Assembly (NCBI RefSeq): GCF_022701255.1
Contig: NZ_CP031705.1
Span: forward strand, 5,208,001-5,272,000
Origin: Microcoleus vaginatus HSN003
GTDB taxonomy: Bacteria > Cyanobacteriota > Cyanobacteriia > Cyanobacteriales > Microcoleaceae
Reading direction: 5' to 3'
DNA: 64,000 nucleotides
The position numbers and the translations under genes are program-made. The notes beneath the pieces were generated by a model, which did no database searches, was not told the DNA's origin, and saw only the letters and a program-made list of their open reading frames with translations. Shown one piece after another: positions 26,221 through 59,509 of this stretch (within the stretch, counting starts at the first letter, position 1; every line of letters begins with the position of its first letter).

Positions 26221-29200
26221 GCCGGAAAATACCTAAAACCCTATCAGGGATTGAAACCCTGGTTTTTCTTTCTTTTTTTCGGTGTCTGCGGTGGGCCGGA
26301 AAATACCTAAAACCCTATCAGGGATTGAAACAAGGGAACTACCCTAGCCAAGAAATTTTGTCAAGAGCCGGAAAATACCTAAAACCCTATCAGGGATTGA
26401 AACGCTCCCACTAGCGGAGATTCTTCCGCCACTAACGAAGGCCGGAAAATACCTAAAACCCTATCAGGGATTGAAACCCACTCTTCTACCAGCATCGTGC
26501 TGCTGCCATTCTTGATGGCCGGAAAATACCTAAAACCCTATCAGGGATTGAAACGCCGAATGCGGGCTTCGTGCGATCGCAGAAATTCAGGCCGGAAAAT
26601 ACCTAAAACCCTATCAGGGATTGAAACAAGTAATTTACGAGGAACGATACACAAATGGGATGGCGCCGGAAAATACCTAAAACCCTATCAGGGATTGAAA
26701 CAAAGCACTTACCTCTAAACGGCTACTATTTGTTCAACCCATGCCGGAAAATACCTAAAACCCTATCAGGGATTGAAACCCAAATCAAGTGTCACGAATT
26801 TGCCCGGATTTTGCCGGAAAATACCTAAAACCCTATCAGGGATTGAAACAGTCGAACAAGCTTGTCAGTCCGCACTTGCCCAAGGCCGGAAAATACCTAA
26901 AACCCTATCAGGGATTGAAACATTGAGTTTTCTATGGACTGGGCTGTTAAAGCTGGTGCCGGAAAATACCTAAAACCCTATCAGGGATTGAAACAACTGG
27001 TCATTCCGTCCTACAGTCTCTCGCCATTTGTGCCGGAAAATACCTAAAACCCTATCAGGGATTGAAACGACGATGATGACAAAACAGCACTCCGACGCGG
27101 CAGCCGGAAAATACCTAAAACCCTATCAGGGATTGAAACTGGTATATCAGTATTGCTACGCTAGACGAAAATATTGGCCGGAAAATACCTAAAACCCTAT
27201 CAGGGATTGAAACGGGATTGTTCGATTTATTGGGCTTGGCACTGGCGATCGAAGGCCGGAAAATACCTAAAACCCTATCAGGGATTGAAACGTACCGGTG
27301 GTTTCTTCTCCCGTGTTTGTCGGCTGCGCCAGGCCGGAAAATACCTAAAACCCTATCAGGGATTGAAACTTTTTCTGTTAATGGTGACGCCATTATTTGA
27401 CTGCCGGAAAATACCTAAAACCCTATCAGGGATTGAAACTGAGGTAGGGGCTGCCAACTATGGGGCGATTCTCCGCCGGAAAATACCTAAAACCCTATCA
27501 GGGATTGAAACGAGCAAGTACACCCTACCAGGGATTGAAGCTAACAGCCGGAAAATACCTAAAACCCTATCAGGGATTGAAACCTGTGTCTCACTCACCT
27601 TACCACGCAGCCTATGCAGGCTTAGAGAGCCGGAAAATACCTAAAACCCTATCAGGGATTGAAACCTGTGTCTCACTGGGAATCCGTACTTGTTGGTCGT
27701 GCCGGAAAATACCTAAAACCCTATCAGGGATTGAAACATGATGTTGTTGGGAAAAGAAACGCTCCTGAACGGCCGGAAAATACCTAAAACCCTATCAGGG
27801 ATTGAAACATCACTCAGCTAATCCGCGCTCGCCAGGAGGTGGCCGGAAAATACCTAAAACCCTATCAGGGATTGAAACCCACTTAACGGGATCGACTCAT
27901 TTTCGATTGAGCCGGAAAATACCTAAAACCCTATCAGGGATTGAAACGGTCTAGTCCAAACTTCTGGCTGTCAAGGGTATTTGCCGGAAAATACCTAAAA
28001 CCCTATCAGGGATTGAAACTAATTAACTCACCTTTGTACAACGGAACATCAGGCCGGAAAATACCTAAAACCCTATCAGGGATTGAAACATTAATAAAGC
28101 ATTAATGAAAATTGAATTTCTGCCCATGCCGGAAAATACCTAAAACCCTATCAGGGATTGAAACTCAACCGACACTCACGGTCGATCGCTCACAAGCGGC
28201 CGGAAAATACCTAAAACCCTATCAGGGATTGAAACGGAGGGCAAAACTGGGTATAGGCAATGCTGGCCGCTGCCGGAAAATACCTAAAACCCTATCAGGG
28301 ATTGAAACTGGGCTGGAAGCTGGAACCCACTATCAAGTTGGGCCGGAAAATACCTAAAACCCTATCAGGGATTGAAACTAGAGTCCAAGCGGAAATGCTT
28401 GATTGGCTTAAGCCGGAAAATACCTAAAACCCTATCAGGGATTGAAACGTGACCTGTAACTTGGACACCTTCTAAAGATTTAGTGCCGGAAAATACCTAA
28501 AACCCTATCAGGGATTGAAACAGGTGCGACTTACTTTCCGAAACTGCCTATCTACCGCCGGAAAATACCTAAAACCCTATCAGGGATTGAAACTTGTAAA
28601 TACGACGAAGCAGAAGAAGCTTGGGGCAGGCCGGAAAATACCTAAAACCCTATCAGGGATTGAAACTTTGGTGGAGGTGCGCTCGCCTTGGGGGGAATTG
28701 CCGGAAAATACCTAAAACCCTATCAGGGATTGAAACTGTAGCACCACAGGGCATTTTAATTTTTTAGGCGGTCGTGAGCCGGAAAATACCTAAAACCCTA
28801 TCAGGGATTGAAACCCGGTGCCGCTGGTGTCAACAATGAATTTATGTTGCCGGAAAATACCTAAAACCCTATCAGGGATTGAAACTCTTCCGTTTTCCTG
28901 TGGGTAGGACTGCCACATAGCCGGAAAATACCTAAAACCCTATCAGGGATTGAAACATGACTACTTTAGAGCCTGCCGTTGTCCCTGTTAAGGCCGGAAA
29001 ATACCTAAAACCCTATCAGGGATTGAAACTAAATGCTTCGGCTGTGGCGTTGGCGGCGGGCCGGGCCGGAAAATACCTAAAACCCTATCAGGGATTGAAA
29101 CTATAAACCTAGAAGTAAAACTTAGGAGGAGGCATGGCAAGCCGGAAAATACCTAAAACCCTATCAGGGATTGAAACCGGATTCTCGCATCAATCCACAG

Positions 29201-30265
29201 GCTATCTGTGTGAATTCTGGCCGGAAAATACCTAAAACCCTATCAGGGATTGAAACACCAAGTATGGAACCGAGGAACAAAAAAGATCTTGCCGGAAAAT
29301 ACCTAAAACCCTATCAGGGATTGAAACCAAAAAGTTCAGGGGCTAGTCCGACACCGGGAGCCAGCCGGAAAATACCTAAAACCCTATCAGGGATTGAAAC
29401 AGTCGCGCAAAAATTTTAGCACCTTCAACAGGATGCCGGAAAATACCTAAAACCCTATCAGGGATTGAAACTTCAGGATCGAATGGGACTAAGAGGCCCA
29501 TATAGAAGCCGGAAAATACCTAAAACCCTATCAGGGATTGAAACTAAATGCGACTTCTGCCGGAGTATCACCGCTGGCAGGCCGGAAAATACCTAAAACC
29601 CTATCAGGGATTGAAACATTTGTGTTTCCGTAGCCATAGCCATACCCATCACGCCGGAAAATACCTAAAACCCTATCAGGGATTGAAACGGGCATTCCTG
29701 ACTATTACGGCTCACAAAACCTAGCCGGAAAATACCTAAAACCCTATCAGGGATTGAAACGCCTCGGTGTTTGGCTCGGCTTCAGGGTCTGCCCGCCGGA
29801 AAATACCTAAAACCCTATCAGGGATTGAAACTCCCGCCCAATTCCACAATTTCTGCCCGCCTGACACCGCCGGAAAATACCTAAAACCCTATCAGGGATT
29901 GAAACTACAAAAAATTACTTGAGAGGAAATCGAAACCAGCCGGAAAATACCTAAAACCCTATCAGGGATTGAAACTCGGTTTGTCGCTCCGGCAGCGGCG
30001 CCAGTTCGCGCCGGAAAATACCTAAAACCCTATCAGGGATTGAAACTCGAGTGGCGATACTGTTTCTGATGTCTTGAATCAAGCCGGAAAATACCTAAAA
30101 CCCTATCAGGGATTGAAACCCTTGGCTGTGTGGTTGGCTTTGATGAGCAATAAGGCCGGAAAATACCTAAAACCCTATCAGGGATTGAAACAAGTGCGAT
30201 CGACCTCGGCAAGGATAGCGGAATAGAGCCGGAAAATACCTATTTTCCCATCTAGGGCTTGAAAC
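26221..30265 (+). CRISPR. CRISPR array: 56 repeats, 55 spacers, no cas genes nearby
   Basis: The repeat is 37 bases, beginning gccggaaaatacc and ending cagggattgaaac, with a central palindrome ccct-atc-aggg. I located 56 copies; the first 55 appear uniform, and the last (30228-30265) is degenerate with one extra base, which marks the distal end. Spacers are 32-45 bases, mostly 33-37. The repeat end ATTGAAAC would give the usual 8-base 5' handle on crRNA, so transcription is on the plus strand. Repeat length and handle resemble type I-D, I-B or III arrays of cyanobacteria, but type cannot be fixed because no cas gene is present in the 26 kb before or 34 kb after it. Processing must depend on Cas6 encoded elsewhere. 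Short open frames across the array are only translated repeats. Confidence 0.99.
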
Positions 30266-33103: not shown

Positions 33104-34321
33104 TTATCGAAGTCTCCTAACATTGTTAAGGGCTTTTTGATAGTTATTTTTATCTCCTTGCTTCTGAAATAAGTCTGCTGCTTTCTGAAAATCTTGAATT
33201 GCACCCTGCTTGTTTCCTAATTCAGAGCGGGCAAATCCCCGGTTGCCGTAGGCTTCGGCATAGTTAGGATTAATTCGTAAAGCTTGGTTGTAATCGGCTA
33301 CAGCACCCTGGTTGTCTCCTAAGTCAGAGCAGACAACTCCCCGGTTTAAGTAAGGTTTAGCAAAGTTAGGATTAATTCGTAAAGCTTGGTTATAATCCGC
33401 TAAAGCACCCTTGTTGTCTCCTAAACGATAGCGGGCAAGCCCCCGGTTGTTGTAGGCTTCGGCAAAGTTAGGATTAATTCGTAAAGCTTGGTTATAATCC
33501 GCTAAAGCACCCTTGTTGTCTCCTAAACGATAGCGGGCAAGCCCCCGGTTGTTGTAGGCTTCGGCAAAGTTAGGATTAATTCGTAAAGCTTGGTTATAAT
33601 CCGCTACAGCCCCCTTGCTGTCTCATAATTCAGATCGCAGCATTCCCCGGTTGTTGTAGGCTTTGGCATAGTTAGGATTAATTGGTAAAGCTTGGTTGTA
33701 ATCGGCTACAGCACCCTGGTTGTCTCCTAATTCAGAGCGGGAAATTCCTCGGTTGTAGTAGGCTTTGGCATAGTTAGGATTAATTCGTAAAGCTTGGTTG
33801 TAATCGGCTACAGCACTCTGCTTGTCTCCTAATTTAGAGCGGCAAATTCCCCGGCTGTGGTAGGCTTTGGCATAGTTAGGATTAAGCTTAATTGCTTGAG
33901 TGTAAGCGGCTATAGCGCTTTGACAATCTCCTTTTTGATACTTATCCTCACCCCGAATAAAGAAATCCTCAGCTTTCGTTCCTGCCGCCAAATCTGAGTT
34001 GGCAATCTTAGCAACGCTGTACTTTTGAATGTTGGTAAATTCTACAACTGTTAAGTCAACTTCTGGCAGTTTTTTTAAGGTAGCGTCAGCGTCACTCCCC
34101 TGCATCAAAGTGAATAGCAAAGTCCTATTCGTACAAGTATCATCTTGATTAACAGCAGCGCACATCACGGGTTCTGCATTCATAATCCCAGTGTTAATAT
34201 ATTTGAGAGTGCCGTTGTTAAAAAAGCTATCATTTGCCGCACGGCTGGGTTGACAAAAAACTACACTTGTGGTACAAGCAACTAACCCGGTTAGGAGTCC
34301 TGTCAAGATTTTGAATTTCAT
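33104..34321 (-). pseudogene. Secreted TPR-repeat protein gene interrupted by one nonsense codon
   Basis: From ATG at 34321 the frame encodes a signal peptide (MKFKILTGLLTGLVACTTS, with a cleavage region near QPSRAA), a short N-terminal domain and TPR units of 34 residues (NPNYAKAYYNRGISRSELGD). At 33623-33625 a TGA replaces what in sister repeats is GGA (Gly of LGD). Beyond it the same frame remains open for 172 codons, with five or six more TPR units and a natural C-terminus ending in NNVRRLR and TAA at 33104-33106. The full product would be 405 residues. Two neighbouring units at about 33380-33600 are nearly identical in DNA, so the repeats have been copied recently. The truncated 232-residue form might still be made. 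Confidence 0.85.
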
Positions 34322-54833: not shown

Positions 54834-57800
54834 ATGGCGACACCAGTTGATTTTCCTAAATATCTGCAATCCCTGGTTGAGTCTTATAAAAAACAAGAGC
54901 ATCTCTACACGCTGACGGATTTACAGGTGGAGGTGCGGGTGGAAAAGCCACCGGAGGATCGATCGCAACCTCGATCCGCAGAAAATAAACCAGAAACGAA
55001 AATCGAGCGGCTGGAAGTGCTGGCGGGACTCCGCAAGTACGTGCAGCAGGGAAAAGTGCTGCTAGTGGGCAAGCCCGGTTCGGGAAAATCGACGGTATTG
55101 CAGCGTTTTCGGTGGGAATGGGCACTAGAAGCGCTGGAAAATGGCGATCGACAGATTCCGGTGTTGGTGCAGTTGAGGAGCGATCGCTCGATCGTAGATG
55201 CAATCTGTGCCGAATTTCGACAAGCAAAACTCAGAGTTGGCGAGAAAGAGGTGGATGATTTGCTGCTGGATGGCAGGTTGTTGCTGTTGCTCGATGGCGT
55301 GAATGAGATGCCATCGCAACAAAGGCGGCAGGATTTGCAGCTATTCCACGACGACAATCCCGATACGGCGATGATTTTCACGACGCGGGATTTGGCGCTG
55401 GGCGGATCTTTGGGCATTGAGAAAAAGCTGGAGATGTGCGCGCTGACGCAACCGCAGATGCGGGAGTTTGTGCACAAGCATTTGCCGCAACATGGGGATT
55501 CGCTGCTGCGACAATTGGGCGATCGCCTGCGAGAGATTGCCGAAACGCCGTTACTGCTGGAAATGATGTGTAAGGTGTTTAAAAATAGCGGGAAAATTCC
55601 CCAGAGTAAGGGCGAGTTGTTTCAGGAGTTCGATCGCCAGTATGACGAGTTTAAGCGCGGTGCGTGGGTTTCGGATGATTTTCGGCGCTTCAAGTCGGAG
55701 GTTTTGCAGCAGTTGGCTTTTGTGATGTTGCAGGGTGACTCGCAGCGCCCCACGGATGGTTGGGTGGCGATTTCTCGCGATCGGGCTGAGAGGATTTTGG
55801 AGGGTTGGTTGCGCGATCGGGGGGTGGTGGATGCGCCAACCAAGGCGAAGGAGTGGCTAGAGGATTTGCTGGAGCACCATCTGTTGCAGGTGGCGGCAAA
55901 ACCGGAGGAAATAGAGTTTCATCACCAATTATTTCAGGAGTATTATGCGGCGCGGGCGTTGCGGAAACTGTTTGATGATAAGCATCCTGATGCGATCGAC
56001 GATCGACGGTTGCAGCATTTCTATTTGAATTATTTTAAATGGACGGAGCCTCTGGCGTTCATGCTGTCGTTGTTGGAGGATGAGAAGCAGGCGGTGCGGG
56101 TGGTGCGGCTGGCATTGGATGTGGATTTGAGCTTGGGGGCGCGGCTGGCGGGGGAAGTGCAGCGGGAGTTTCAGCAGCGCACGGTTGGGTTGGTGGATGG
56201 GTTGGAGGTGCCGGGGTGGTTGAAGGCTGCGCTTTTGGGGGAAGTGCGATCGGATGAGGCGATTTCGGGATTACTTAGACTCCTTGAAGATTCAGACTCT
56301 TATATGCGTAAGAAGGCGGCAGATGCCTTAGGCAATATCCGTGATGATCGGGCGATTCCGGGATTACTTAAACTCCTTGAAGATTCAGACTCTGATGTGC
56401 GTTGGAGGGCGGCAGATGCCTTAGTCAAAATCGGTGACGATCAGGCGATTGCGGGATTACTTAAACTCGTTGAATATTCAGGCTCTGATGTGCGTTGGAG
56501 GGCGGCAGATGCCTTAGGCAAAATCGGTGACGATCGGGCGATTGCGGGATTATTTAAACTCGTTAAACATTCAGATTCTGATGTGCGTAAGAAGGCGACA
56601 AATGCCTTATGCAATATCGGTGGTGATCGGGCGATTCCGCGATTACTTAAACTCGTTGAACATTCAGAGGATTATGTGCGTAAGAAGGCGACAGATGCCT
56701 TATGCAATATCGGTGGCGATCGGGCGATTCCGCGATTACTTAAACTCGTTGAACATTCAGACGATTATGTGCGTATGAGGGCGGCAGATGCCTTATGCAA
56801 AATCGGTGACGCTCAGGCGATTCCAGGATTACTTAAACTCGTTGAACATTCAGACGATTATGTGCGTATGAGGGCGGCAGATGCCTTATGCAATATCGGT
56901 GACGCTCAGGCGATTCTAGGATTACTTAAACTCCTTAAAGATTCAGATTCTGATGTGCGTATGAGGGCGGCAGATGCCTTATGCAAAATTGGTGACAAGG
57001 CGGCAATTCCCGGATTACTTAAACTTGTTGAAAATTCAGACTATGATGTGCGTAAGAGTGCGGCAGATGCCTTAGGCGAAATTGGTGACAAGGCAGCAAT
57101 TCCCGGATTACTTAAACTTATTAAAGATTCAGACTCTTTTGTGGGTTGGAGTGCGATATATGCTTTGGGCAAAATCGGTGACAAGGCAGCAATTCCCGGA
57201 TTACTTAAACTTGTTGAAGATTCAGACTCTTTTGTGCGTAGGAATGCGGCAGATACCTTAGGCAAAATTGGTGACAAGGCGGCAATTCCCGGATTACTTA
57301 AACTTGTTGAAAATTCAGACTATGATGTGCGTAAGAGTGCGACAGATGCCTTAGGCAAAATCGGTGACAAGGCAGCAATTCCCGGATTACTTAAACTTGT
57401 TGAAGATTCAAACTCTGATGTGCGTTGGAGTGTGGCAGAGGCCTTAGGCAAAATCGGTGACAACACAGCAATTCCCGGATTACTTAAACTTGTTGAAGAT
57501 TCAAACTCTGATGTGCGTAGGAACGCGGCAAAAGCCTTAGGCAAAATCGGTGACAAGGCAGCAATTCCCGCATTACTTAAACTTGTTAAAGATTACCACT
57601 ATGATGTGCGTTTGAGTGTGGCAGAAGCCTTAGGCAAAATTGGTGACAAGGCAGCAATTCCCGCATTACTTAAACTTGTTGAAAGTTCAAACTCTGATGT
57701 GCGTAGGAATGCGGCAGAGGCCTTAGGCAAAATTGGTGACAAGGCAGCAATTCCCGCATTACTTAAACTTGTTGAAAGTTCAAACTCTGATGTACGTAAG

Positions 57801-59102
57801 AATGCGGCAGAGGCCTTAGGCAAAATTGGTGACAACGCAGCAATTCCCGCATTACTTAAATTTGTTGAAGATTCAAACTCTGATGTGCGTAGAAATGCGG
57901 CAGAGGCCTTAGACAAAATTGGTTACAAGGCAGCAATTCCCGCATTACTTAAATTTGCTGAAGATTCAAACTCTGATGTGCGTAGGAATGCGGCAGAGGC
58001 CTTAGACAAAATTGGTTACAAGGCAGGGATTCCCGCATTACTTAAATTTGTTGAACATTCAAACTATGATGTGCGTAGGAATGCGATATATGCTTTGAGT
58101 AAAATCGGTGACAAGGCAGTAATTTCCGGATTACTTGAAATTGTTGAATATTCAGAGTATTATGTGCGTAAGAGTGCAATAGATGCTTTAGGCGAAATTG
58201 GTGACAAGGCAGCAATTTCCGGATTACTTAAACTTGTTGAACATTCAGACTATGATGTGCGTAAAAATGTGGCAGATACCTTAGGCAAAATTGGTGACAA
58301 GGCAGCAATTCCCGGATTACTTAAACTTGTTAAAGATTCAGTCTCTTTGGTGAGTAGGAGTGCGGTAGATACCTTATGCAAAATCGGTGACAAGGCAGCA
58401 ATTTCCGGATTACTTAAACTCCTTGAAGATTCAAACTCGGATGTGCGTAGGAATGTAGCATATACCTTAGGCAAAATCACTAAGCAGCACACAGAAGGAG
58501 TCGTCCCCTATCTCCCGCACCTCCTCACCTTAATTCCCTCCGAATCCGGCAAAGAAGTTCACGGCCTCATCCTTGCCATCCAAGCCGCCTGCAAATACTA
58601 CAACTATGAGATTTGTCAGTTGTCCCTAGCACCGGACATTGGCAGGCATCCGGCGAATGTTTCTGCTAGCGTATATATACAATCTCTCAAGGAACTCACA
58701 GTGATGTCAAACCAATCACCCATCTTTAACCAACCAAATGCCAACATAGCCCTTAACTATGCCGCTGAAAACAGCAATCCCAACGTTACTCAAAACATCC
58801 AAGCCGCCCAGCAATTCTCCCCAGAAGCTGCACTGAATGCAGTAGTGCAAATCATTCAGGCATTAGAAAAAAAGCATACAGAAGTGCAAGACGAGCAACA
58901 AGCACGCAATATTATTGATGCAAAATTTAAGGTAATCAAAGAGCAAAAACCCATCGAGTGGCAAAACCTAATCAGCTTCAAACAGGTTTACAACGGTGGC
59001 AAAAAAGCAGCGCTGAAAGTTGGCGAACACTTCGCCGAATCAAACCCCTGGGGCAAAGGACTTGTTGCCTTCATTGAAGGCGTATCCGAAGACGTGAAAT
59101 AG
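54834..59102 (+). CDS. NACHT NTPase with 24 HEAT repeats (NLR-like)
   Basis: A 1422-residue protein. Residues 1-70: a short N-terminal region (FPKYLQSLVESYKKQEHLYT). Residues 71-230: NACHT NTPase, with Walker A GKPGSGKST (79-87), Walker B LLLLLDGVNE (149-158) and a sensor Arg in FTTRDLALG. Residues 230-475: helical winged-helix-like part (FHHQLFQEYYAARALRKL). Residues 476-1219: 24 units of 31 residues, of the PBS-lyase/HEAT type. Residues 1220-1422: a linker rich in Asn (FNQPNANIALNYA, NSNPNVTQNIQ) and a C-terminal helical module (PIEWQNLISFK, NPWGKGLVAFIEGV). The architecture is that of bacterial NLR-like sensors with HEAT repeats in place of leucine-rich repeats; several bacterial NACHT proteins defend against phage. 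Ligand and effector activity are not identifiable. A single gene, no recognisable effector partner. Confidence 0.9.
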   Translation: MATPVDFPKYLQSLVESYKKQEHLYTLTDLQVEVRVEKPPEDRSQPRSAENKPETKIERLEVLAGLRKYVQQGKVLLVGKPGSGKSTVLQRFRWEWALEALENGDRQIPVLVQLRSDRSIVDAICAEFRQAKLRVGEKEVDDLLLDGRLLLLLDGVNEMPSQQRRQDLQLFHDDNPDTAMIFTTRDLALGGSLGIEKKLEMCALTQPQMREFVHKHLPQHGDSLLRQLGDRLREIAETPLLLEMMCKVFKNSGKIPQSKGELFQEFDRQYDEFKRGAWVSDDFRRFKSEVLQQLAFVMLQGDSQRPTDGWVAISRDRAERILEGWLRDRGVVDAPTKAKEWLEDLLEHHLLQVAAKPEEIEFHHQLFQEYYAARALRKLFDDKHPDAIDDRRLQHFYLNYFKWTEPLAFMLSLLEDEKQAVRVVRLALDVDLSLGARLAGEVQREFQQRTVGLVDGLEVPGWLKAALLGEVRSDEAISGLLRLLEDSDSYMRKKAADALGNIRDDRAIPGLLKLLEDSDSDVRWRAADALVKIGDDQAIAGLLKLVEYSGSDVRWRAADALGKIGDDRAIAGLFKLVKHSDSDVRKKATNALCNIGGDRAIPRLLKLVEHSEDYVRKKATDALCNIGGDRAIPRLLKLVEHSDDYVRMRAADALCKIGDAQAIPGLLKLVEHSDDYVRMRAADALCNIGDAQAILGLLKLLKDSDSDVRMRAADALCKIGDKAAIPGLLKLVENSDYDVRKSAADALGEIGDKAAIPGLLKLIKDSDSFVGWSAIYALGKIGDKAAIPGLLKLVEDSDSFVRRNAADTLGKIGDKAAIPGLLKLVENSDYDVRKSATDALGKIGDKAAIPGLLKLVEDSNSDVRWSVAEALGKIGDNTAIPGLLKLVEDSNSDVRRNAAKALGKIGDKAAIPALLKLVKDYHYDVRLSVAEALGKIGDKAAIPALLKLVESSNSDVRRNAAEALGKIGDKAAIPALLKLVESSNSDVRKNAAEALGKIGDNAAIPALLKFVEDSNSDVRRNAAEALDKIGYKAAIPALLKFAEDSNSDVRRNAAEALDKIGYKAGIPALLKFVEHSNYDVRRNAIYALSKIGDKAVISGLLEIVEYSEYYVRKSAIDALGEIGDKAAISGLLKLVEHSDYDVRKNVADTLGKIGDKAAIPGLLKLVKDSVSLVSRSAVDTLCKIGDKAAISGLLKLLEDSNSDVRRNVAYTLGKITKQHTEGVVPYLPHLLTLIPSESGKEVHGLILAIQAACKYYNYEICQLSLAPDIGRHPANVSASVYIQSLKELTVMSNQSPIFNQPNANIALNYAAENSNPNVTQNIQAAQQFSPEAALNAVVQIIQALEKKHTEVQDEQQARNIIDAKFKVIKEQKPIEWQNLISFKQVYNGGKKAALKVGEHFAESNPWGKGLVAFIEGVSEDVK
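56259..58490 (+). repeat. 24 tandem 93-bp repeats encoding HEAT units
   Basis: Exactly 24 units of 93 bases in phase. Units 1-8 form one subfamily (cgatcgggcgatt junctions, ADALCKIGD endings) and units 9-24 another (ggtgacaaggcagcaattcc junctions). Variation is concentrated between the LLKLVE helix and the DVR turn (residues 10-17 of a unit) and at the two residues after DVR; the frame is never broken. The high DNA identity points to recent copying by slippage or recombination. Confidence 0.95.
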
Positions 59103-59287: not shown

Positions 59288-59509
59288 ATGATTCAAAATC
59301 CCGCATACTATCAGATGGTGCTAGACACTTTGTGCACCGCCCTAGAGGATGCCCGCCCCGCTGTCAGGGCGAAAGCATCAGAAGCACTGGGAAAAATAGG
59401 AGATGTGGCGATGGTGCCCATATTAGTTAAAGCCTTCAAAGACACCTCGCCAGAAGTCCGTTCCAGCGTCATCCAAGCCCTCGGACAACTGATACTAAAT
59501 GAGGCTTAA
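59288..59509 (+). CDS. Small HEAT-repeat protein
   Basis: A 73-residue protein made of about two HEAT repeats (LEDARPAVRAKASEALGKIG, FKDTSPEVRSSVIQALGQL). It lies 186 bases after the NACHT-HEAT gene on the same strand, with a GAACAGGC-type hairpin between them. The units resemble the consensus of the large protein but the DNA is clearly diverged. It may be a partner or an offshoot of the larger gene, or a scaffold of another complex. Function unknown. Confidence 0.65.
   Translation: MIQNPAYYQMVLDTLCTALEDARPAVRAKASEALGKIGDVAMVPILVKAFKDTSPEVRSSVIQALGQLILNEA

Follow-up and report, generated by a model that had tools for sequence, protein, structure and literature searches.

The stretch analysed here, called the window below, comprises 64,000 nucleotides of Microcoleus vaginatus HSN003 (contig NZ_CP031705.1, positions 5,208,001 to 5,272,000). 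It holds a gene whose product joins a NACHT NTPase, a long array of HEAT repeats, a short motif and a helical bundle (Table 1). We read this gene, with a probability of about 0.6, as a one-piece intracellular NLR receptor of the STAND/NACHT kind, in which the C-terminal motif and bundle would be the signalling part. Genomes of the genus are given G numbers (G000 for the window gene) and other loci L numbers.

Table 1. The window gene, its parts and the small open reading frame (ORF) behind it; TRF, Tandem Repeats Finder; pLDDT, predicted local distance difference test score.
Feature	Position in window	Strand	Basis
NACHT-HEAT-motif-helical protein, 1422 aa, ATG start	54834..59102	+	ORF and Pfam
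Pre-NACHT region, residues 1-70	54834..55043	+	without Pfam match
NACHT domain, residues 75-218	55056..55487	+	Pfam, E 1.3e-10
Walker A GKPGSGKST, residues 79-87	55068..55094	+	sequence and alignment
Walker B LLLLLDG, residues 149-155	55278..55298	+	sequence and alignment
FHHQLFQEYYA stretch, residues 362-372	55917..55949	+	conserved in alignment
24 HEAT units of 31 aa (93 bp) each, residues 479-1222	56268..58499	+	TRF, unit alignment
Conserved linker behind array, IQAACKYYNYEI region	58500..58718	+	alignment
Class a signalling motif PIFNQPNANIALNYAAENSNPNVTQNI, residues 1296-1322	58719..58799	+	alignment; pLDDT <50 in model
Helical bundle CTM-1, residues 1330-1416	58821..59081	+	model; conserved alignment columns
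73-aa HEAT mini-ORF	59288..59509	+	downstream of receptor gene

A first-pass annotation, made from the sequence alone, had named a NACHT NTPase with these Walker motifs; both are intact, and Pfam agrees. Loss of the ATPase motifs from homologues, which it had listed as speaking against its proposal, was not seen: the motifs are invariant in an alignment of 35 hand-chosen rows, where the invariant columns include G79, P81, G82, G84, K85, S86, T87, D154 and G155 and the P-loop, LDG and FHHQ..QEYYA residues as a whole are invariant or almost so. We take the last of these stretches to be the winged-helix motif of NLRs. The predicted model of residues 1-480, built from 35 rows, has a pLDDT of 84.6. 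Searched against the PDB with Foldseek, it matched NLRC4, NOD2, NAIP and NLRP entries, NLRP3 included, the best match being NLRC4 (4kxf, E 2.4e-12; template modelling score by query 0.56-0.61 for the 4kxf chains). An animal NLR is named in 40 of the first 46 PDB rows, the other six being oocyte complexes in which the chain is not named, and sequence identity to these structural matches is merely 13-19%. As modelled, the ATPase core has the animal-NLR fold, which agrees with the NLR-like sensor proposed earlier. Judged by sequence and model, with an intact P-loop, this predicted core fold and superstructure-forming repeats, the protein is an NLR-like NACHT STAND protein.

The 24 HEAT units claimed by the annotation are there, following one another with a strict 31-aa period and no gap between them (Pfam HEAT_2, E 5.3e-275), and TRF reports a 93-bp unit in 23.8 copies (87% match, score 2540), far above chance. 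Such repeats attract automatic names. The NCBIfam models CpcE (399.1 against a cut-off of 330) and NblB (316.7 against 300) both pass on the window protein, which would make it a phycobilin lyase or a phycobilisome-degradation protein. We give this next to no credence and rejected it as a repeat artefact: the scores sum many HEAT units (12 and 9 stretches), and neither the NACHT core nor the C-terminal module falls within the matches. The DVU0298 model likewise passes its cut-off through the repeats, and because all three scores stem from them, the protein could be given a wrong automatic name. No PADLOC system was called outside the repeats; seven of nine hits fall within the HEAT array, and two marginal ones (E 0.007 and 0.011) touch the NACHT part. 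For the NCBIfam model of EruA, an antiphage protein with NACHT, the window protein reaches a score of 22.7, where the cut-off is 1000.

Within the window array, neighbouring units are 87% identical in DNA sequence and units at longer distance ~79%. Complete arrays of genus orthologues hold 10-21 units against 24 in the window (G013 21, G007 17, G028 16, G012 15, G014 14, G025 13, G006 13, G011 10; that of G022 is split and that of G020 gapped). Counts in 97 database proteins run from 4 to 19 with a median of 12, as obtained with a window-derived unit profile that undercounts divergent units and from proteins some of which are partial. Between the window gene and its orthologue in G013, identity is 95.2% over the first 1434 nt and 92.4% over the last 396 nt, whereas the units are 80.0% identical by index and 83.7% by best match. 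Over nine orthologues, the nearest neighbour of 98 of 143 units lies in the same protein, a count that averaged 16 and never exceeded 32 when labels were shuffled 1000 times; G011, where this holds for 2 of 10 units, is the exception. The array turns over far more quickly than the flanking parts of the gene, and these comparisons support well a concerted evolution in which units are renewed within the gene.

By a PDB sequence search, the window unit is of the alphaRep type. The alphaRep library varies positions 18, 19, 22, 23, 26 and 30, and in one alphaRep complex binding is through the concave faces, on which the variable residues sit (PMC3754942; this and the other papers cited by accession are drawn on through excerpts). 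Mapped via the V-R pair in the PDB alignments, these correspond to unit positions 11, 12, 15, 16, 19 and 23. Nonsynonymous variation (pN) is 0.303 at these six positions and 0.157 elsewhere (Mann-Whitney p 5e-4). Because variation is about doubled at the binder positions of an array that turns over fast, ligand sensing is the best reading of these sequence patterns, and both observations strengthen the suggestion of the first-pass annotation that the HEAT array is the ligand surface.

To describe selection, we counted ratios of nonsynonymous to synonymous change (dN/dS) along minimum spanning trees, with recombination ignored and with a binomial test that takes tree edges as independent. The four arrays at the window site gave 1.54 (kappa 1, p 5e-5) or 1.77 (kappa 2), and their six binder positions 1.79 (kappa 1, p 0.012) or 2.37 (kappa 2); the same positions in the other five orthologue arrays gave 1.07 (kappa 1) or 1.38 (kappa 2). 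Taken singly over whole units, the arrays of G000 and G013 reach p 0.037 and 0.014, and the other seven miss 0.05. Diversifying selection is thus supported at the window site, as far as such counts can indicate, and not throughout. Three observations speak against a selected ligand surface. The other five arrays pooled gave only 0.82 (kappa 1) or 0.94 (kappa 2); inter-repeat positions 26-28 and 31 are as variable as the binder positions; and the other 25 positions reach 1.37 in the window-site arrays (p 0.007, kappa 1; 0.72 in the other five), so that the excess is not confined to the binder positions.

The low pooled value of 0.82 and the unconfined excess would be expected if neutral slippage homogenised the array and the variable positions merely reflected weak structural constraint, and alphaRep positions vary across the natural repeat family in general (PMC3754942). 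Two paralogues in the window genome, further NACHT-HEAT genes with 34-aa units, point in opposite directions. L179, for which the statistics rest on 14 of 18 units owing to a one-residue insertion, has a mean unit DNA identity of 89% and a dN/dS of 0.97, in keeping with slippage, whereas L180 (84%) gives 1.64, with variation highest in the residues next to its V-R pair and at unit positions 10 and 14. The value for a TPR array that belongs to no NLR is 0.92, though from 6 units, one of them with an in-frame stop. With the 1.54 of the window-site arrays, L180 and the TPR array make neutral slippage a doubtful account, and we retain ligand sensing. Set against the pattern of diversity-generating retroelements, in which adenine-specific changes mark a variable repeat copied from a template, base changes in the arrays are spread over the array and all base pairs, with 44-55% involving A; neither a reverse transcriptase nor a template was searched for.

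The separate C-terminal module seen in the first-pass annotation comprises residues 1286-1422 (137 aa) and has no Pfam match at the cut-off. Its AlphaFold2 model (37 rows) has helices at module residues 45-62, 69-86, 88-104, 111-118 and 120-131, behind 42 residues with pLDDT <50. In a species-level genome collection, the module occurs in 43 loci, all with cyanobacterial titles, and at 16 of the 40 loci where an ORF could be assigned it forms the C-terminal end of a P-loop protein 1037-1466 aa long (of these 16, L240 stops 19 codons short). A second copy of the module was looked for in the window genome, and none was found. Stand-alone homologues keep the helical part and swap the first 25-40 residues among several kinds; the same motif kinds end those receptors that lack a fused bundle.

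Relatives can carry whole enzyme domains at this end. A NACHT relative with E better than 1e-30 was present in 71 of 291 genomes of the order survey, from which we took as order-level loci 40 of 86 listed places outside the genus, by score with some skipped and with the tails unseen. Among ten 420-aa C-terminal pieces that we picked by eye as folded-looking (nine order-level loci and G004), Pfam found Metallophos in three, TIR_2 in two, PNP_UDP_1 and Peptidase_C14 in one each, and no effector in three. On these sequences, we take the C-terminus to be the effector slot of the family, carrying either an effector domain or a short motif with a helical bundle, and the window gene appears as the one-piece form, with motif and bundle fused to the receptor. 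A metallophosphoesterase is seemingly a frequent C-terminal effector, at several loci from L271 to L302 (confirmed with Pfam in L271, L274 and L276, with others judged similar by eye). In 15 selected receptor or neighbour proteins, Pfam found NACHT in 10, HEAT in 11 and Trypsin_2 in 3, the last always ahead of NACHT. The annotation had placed the effector or its adaptor either in the C-terminal module or in the short N-terminal region. The former location stands and the latter falls: the N-terminus is ~70 aa without a Pfam match, and where relatives do have an effector at that end, it is a whole trypsin-like domain placed before NACHT.

How the motifs are shared suggests how relatives signal. 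We distinguished eight classes, each by alignment to one exemplar (threshold 44; shuffled null, 99th percentile 34 and maximum 38); this replaced regular expressions, by which none of 70 module homologues had been assigned to c, f or h. A tail census covered 120 listed receptors of 1149 found. A fused bundle is present in 65, preceded by class b in 37, a in 26, c in one and none in one. The 55 without a bundle end in f (24), d (10), c (5), b (3) or no class (13), where the three b tails are, by eye, cut or shifted inside the module and several of the 13 are truncated. Fused forms outside the genus include class d (L225) and class f (L230).

The pairing of tails with downstream genes was examined at 45 loci, namely 39 complete order-level loci and six added for a downstream motif already seen, by scoring the ORFs in the 3 kb downstream and taking their best class, with neighbours read from ORFs rather than curated genes. 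For all 12 classified tails, in six classes (c, d, e, f, g and h, the h exemplar coming from one of the added loci), the downstream class is that of the tail. Random pairing among the 12 gives a mean of 2.7 and a maximum of 9, and none of 20,000 permutations reaches 12. The 39 order-level loci alone, chosen with tails unseen, give 6 of 6, and L298 is a seventh order-level pair by direct alignment, outside the eight classes. A score permutation capped at 60 (the cap chosen afterwards) that excluded five loci whose receptor ORF ends inside the array was matched in 1 of 20,000, and an earlier one on 40 loci including those five in 6 of 10,000. The partner's motif stands at the gene start (L264, L268, L224) or after a HEAT part (L267, L270, L299, L080, L235), always ahead of the helical part as far as the sequences were displayed. 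Added-set receptors include an NB-ARC protein (L224), an LRR-Roc-COR protein (L235) and a protein that, by eye, contains hydrophobic stretches (L227, L228). We also noted that at L235, L227 and L228 receptor-type genes are followed by the same module type with matching motifs. On this evidence, relatives seem to pass their signal to the protein of the neighbouring gene through a short matching tag.

The window gene joins the receptor and partner halves of such loci, and would therefore be a self-contained NLR in which oligomerisation clusters motif and bundle; no separate partner would be needed, because both are fused to the receptor. In the mechanism we propose, the concave HEAT surface would bind a foreign or altered protein, probably from phage, and binding would lead to ATP-driven oligomerisation. 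This would cluster the C-terminal motifs, which would assemble, perhaps as amyloid; we infer amyloid assembly from the pairing pattern and the composition. The assembled motifs would bring the helical bundles together, and these would then arrest the cell, kill it or recruit a partner.

Several results count against motif and bundle in this role. The bundle model is middling (mean pLDDT 63.5) with the motif unstructured in it, and Foldseek returned no PDB fold with E <0.001 for the module model. Nowhere is the bundle strongly hydrophobic (19-residue Kyte-Doolittle maximum 0.61); CTM-2, a second executioner type, has a more hydrophobic helix (1.5-2.0). No second copy of motif a was found in the window genome. 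The uncapped score permutation is weak (905 of 20,000), because receptors with fused domains match stand-alone domains of other loci. The receptors of G025 (L073) and G010 (L085) carry class a with a fused bundle, yet a class f HEAT-CTM-2 gene lies downstream; there, as in G011, behind a HEAT gene comes one of 216 aa that combines a HEAT part with motif f and CTM-2. The pairing rule does not hold for the fused forms of G025 and G010, where the fusion may have replaced an older f tail, and this mismatch lowered our probability from 0.62 to 0.60 and that of the broader reading given below by as little. L219 combines an N-terminal trypsin-like domain with an intact fused bundle, so that the bundle may be an adaptor.

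L219 also bears on the alternative that motif and bundle of the same receptor merely hold the oligomer or recruit an unlinked effector, the killing enzyme being encoded elsewhere. L240, with a trypsin-like domain and an ORF that breaks inside the bundle, and L223, a trypsin-like protein with a bundle gene downstream, fit this too, as does the absence of a catalytic or other known domain in the bundle from Pfam and Foldseek searches. However, whole enzyme domains fill the same slot in other relatives, and the window genome holds no other copy of motif a, although partners with another motif would escape notice. We consider an enzyme encoded elsewhere unlikely and keep to motif and bundle as the signalling part. 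A broader reading, which we hold tentatively and at rather less than even odds, is that cyanobacteria have a large class of immune receptors built back to front: first a NACHT switch, then a HEAT sensor renewed by recombination and last a C-terminal prion-like tag that would template onto the matching tag of a small executioner, with ~8 tag classes and at least two executioner types, one of which would also serve NB-ARC, LRR-Roc-COR and membrane-protein-like receptors.

The genomic distribution bears on what is sensed. An orthologue is present in 13 of 29 genomes of the genus (two cut by contig ends), with 81-100% identity over most of residues 1-469, and G018 and G019 keep a remnant of residues ~1-46 alone. 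At the window site, between a spermidine-synthase-like gene (named by eye) and a 143-aa gene, the gene is present in G000, G013, G014 and G028, as well as in G026, where it spans two contigs. The site is empty in 11 genomes (G003, G004, G005, G006, G007, G011, G012, G015, G021, G024 and G025), with the flanking genes 120-728 bp apart and no NACHT match between them; status was scored where both flanks lay on the fetched stretch, leaving out G001, G008 and G022. In G006, G007, G011, G012 and G025 the gene lies elsewhere, behind a 331-aa pentapeptide-repeat gene. The window genome has 23 NACHT matches, 16 of them above the curated cut-off, and one copy of the window-gene family, its next best NACHT relative being 30% identical. 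By this pattern, the window gene is an accessory gene. Calothrix sp. PCC 6303 carries a relative together with its partner gene (the pair CAL6303_RS28245 and RS28240) on a mobilizable plasmid, close to genes for a MobV relaxase and a VapC toxin; no relatives of the bundle or NACHT part were confirmed on viral contigs. A purely housekeeping context, which the first-pass annotation had said would count against it, is not what we found: contexts differ, 11 sites are empty and a relative is on a mobilizable plasmid.

An anti-phage or regulated-death role is likely, and so, from kinship and mobility, is the sensing of phage. A sensor of stress, development or kin in the filament would accord with the conserved genes that flank the window gene's own site, and fungal NLRs with renewed repeats serve allorecognition (PMC10907252, PMC12222747). 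Patchy presence, empty sites, plasmid carriage in Calothrix and array turnover argue for defence instead, although they suit allorecognition almost as well. We think a non-defence sensor improbable, at roughly the level of an enzyme encoded elsewhere, and prefer the anti-phage role.

Copies of the 73-aa HEAT mini-ORF stand behind the gene in G013 (97% identical) and G028 (95%), and a HEAT gene of 198-249 aa lies downstream of the receptor gene in G025, G007, G011, G010, G026 and G020; from its sequence, the mini-ORF is apparently a shortened form of the latter. At L300, the receptor array is apparently interrupted by a transposase-like ORF (by eye). Elsewhere in the window, positions 26741-30191 hold ~3.4 kb with many tandem repeats of ~71-73 bp and a strong AT skew, the sole ORF of at least 150 aa inside being one of 156 aa. 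At 33201-33885 on the minus strand, a 102-bp TPR array (6.7 copies, 87%) has an in-frame stop in one unit and is perhaps a decaying gene.

If our reading holds, the family would offer a one-gene or two-gene system in which to test NLR signalling in bacteria, the receptor order being the reverse of the one described. It would also provide a natural series of arrays on one scaffold, whose specificity might be readable from a few positions per unit via alphaRep structures, and would link cyanobacterial filaments with fungi, in which repeats are renewed and cell death is templated by motifs.

The closest parallel in motif arrangement is with the bacterial amyloid signalosomes of BASS and Bell, reportedly described by Dyrka et al. 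2020. BASS motifs were found by matching exchangeable short motifs in adjacent receptor and partner genes (PMC7889193, PMC8086366), and lie at receptor N-termini and effector C-termini (PMC7889193, PMC8086366, PMC12261475). Shared with our loci are neighbouring genes for a receptor and a small helical effector with a common short motif (PMC7889193, PMC8086366, PMC12261475, PMC9815663), several exchangeable motif classes and cyanobacteria among the hosts. In contrast, the motif here is at the C-terminus of the receptor and ahead of the helical part of the effector, the two often being joined in a single protein; the likeness drawn is one of motif arrangement alone. The literature searched, in the excerpts covered, contained no account of a receptor with a signalling motif at its C-terminus; it did not include Kibby et al. 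2023 or the primary paper on BASS, and an earlier description is possible. Bacterial NACHT (bNACHT) proteins are ordered as N-terminal effector, NACHT and C-terminal sensor (PMC12169576). They resemble the window gene as single-gene NACHT cores with a variable sensor (PMC12169576), but here the sensor is central, the effector slot C-terminal and the N-terminal effector missing. Systems with effector-associated or death-like domains likewise use a homotypic adaptor common to effector and core component (PMC8195603, PMC7159879), built from named domains there and from a 25-35 aa motif here. The alphaRep artificial HEAT binders share the 31-aa unit type and the variable positions (PMC3754942), but they are a designed library, not a receptor. 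Fungal NLRs have internally conserved, length-variable repeats with variable positions on the concave face (PMC4986451, PMC12222747); their repeats are WD, ANK or TPR, whereas those here are HEAT, with a C-terminal slot. Positive selection at concave sites is a further mark of the fungal type, beside which stand the dN/dS values given above for the six binder positions, 1.79 at the window site and 1.07 in the other five arrays (kappa 1). The fungal type is defined by more than 85% internal repeat identity over 100 aa of protein, and adjacent units of the window array are 87% identical at the DNA level.

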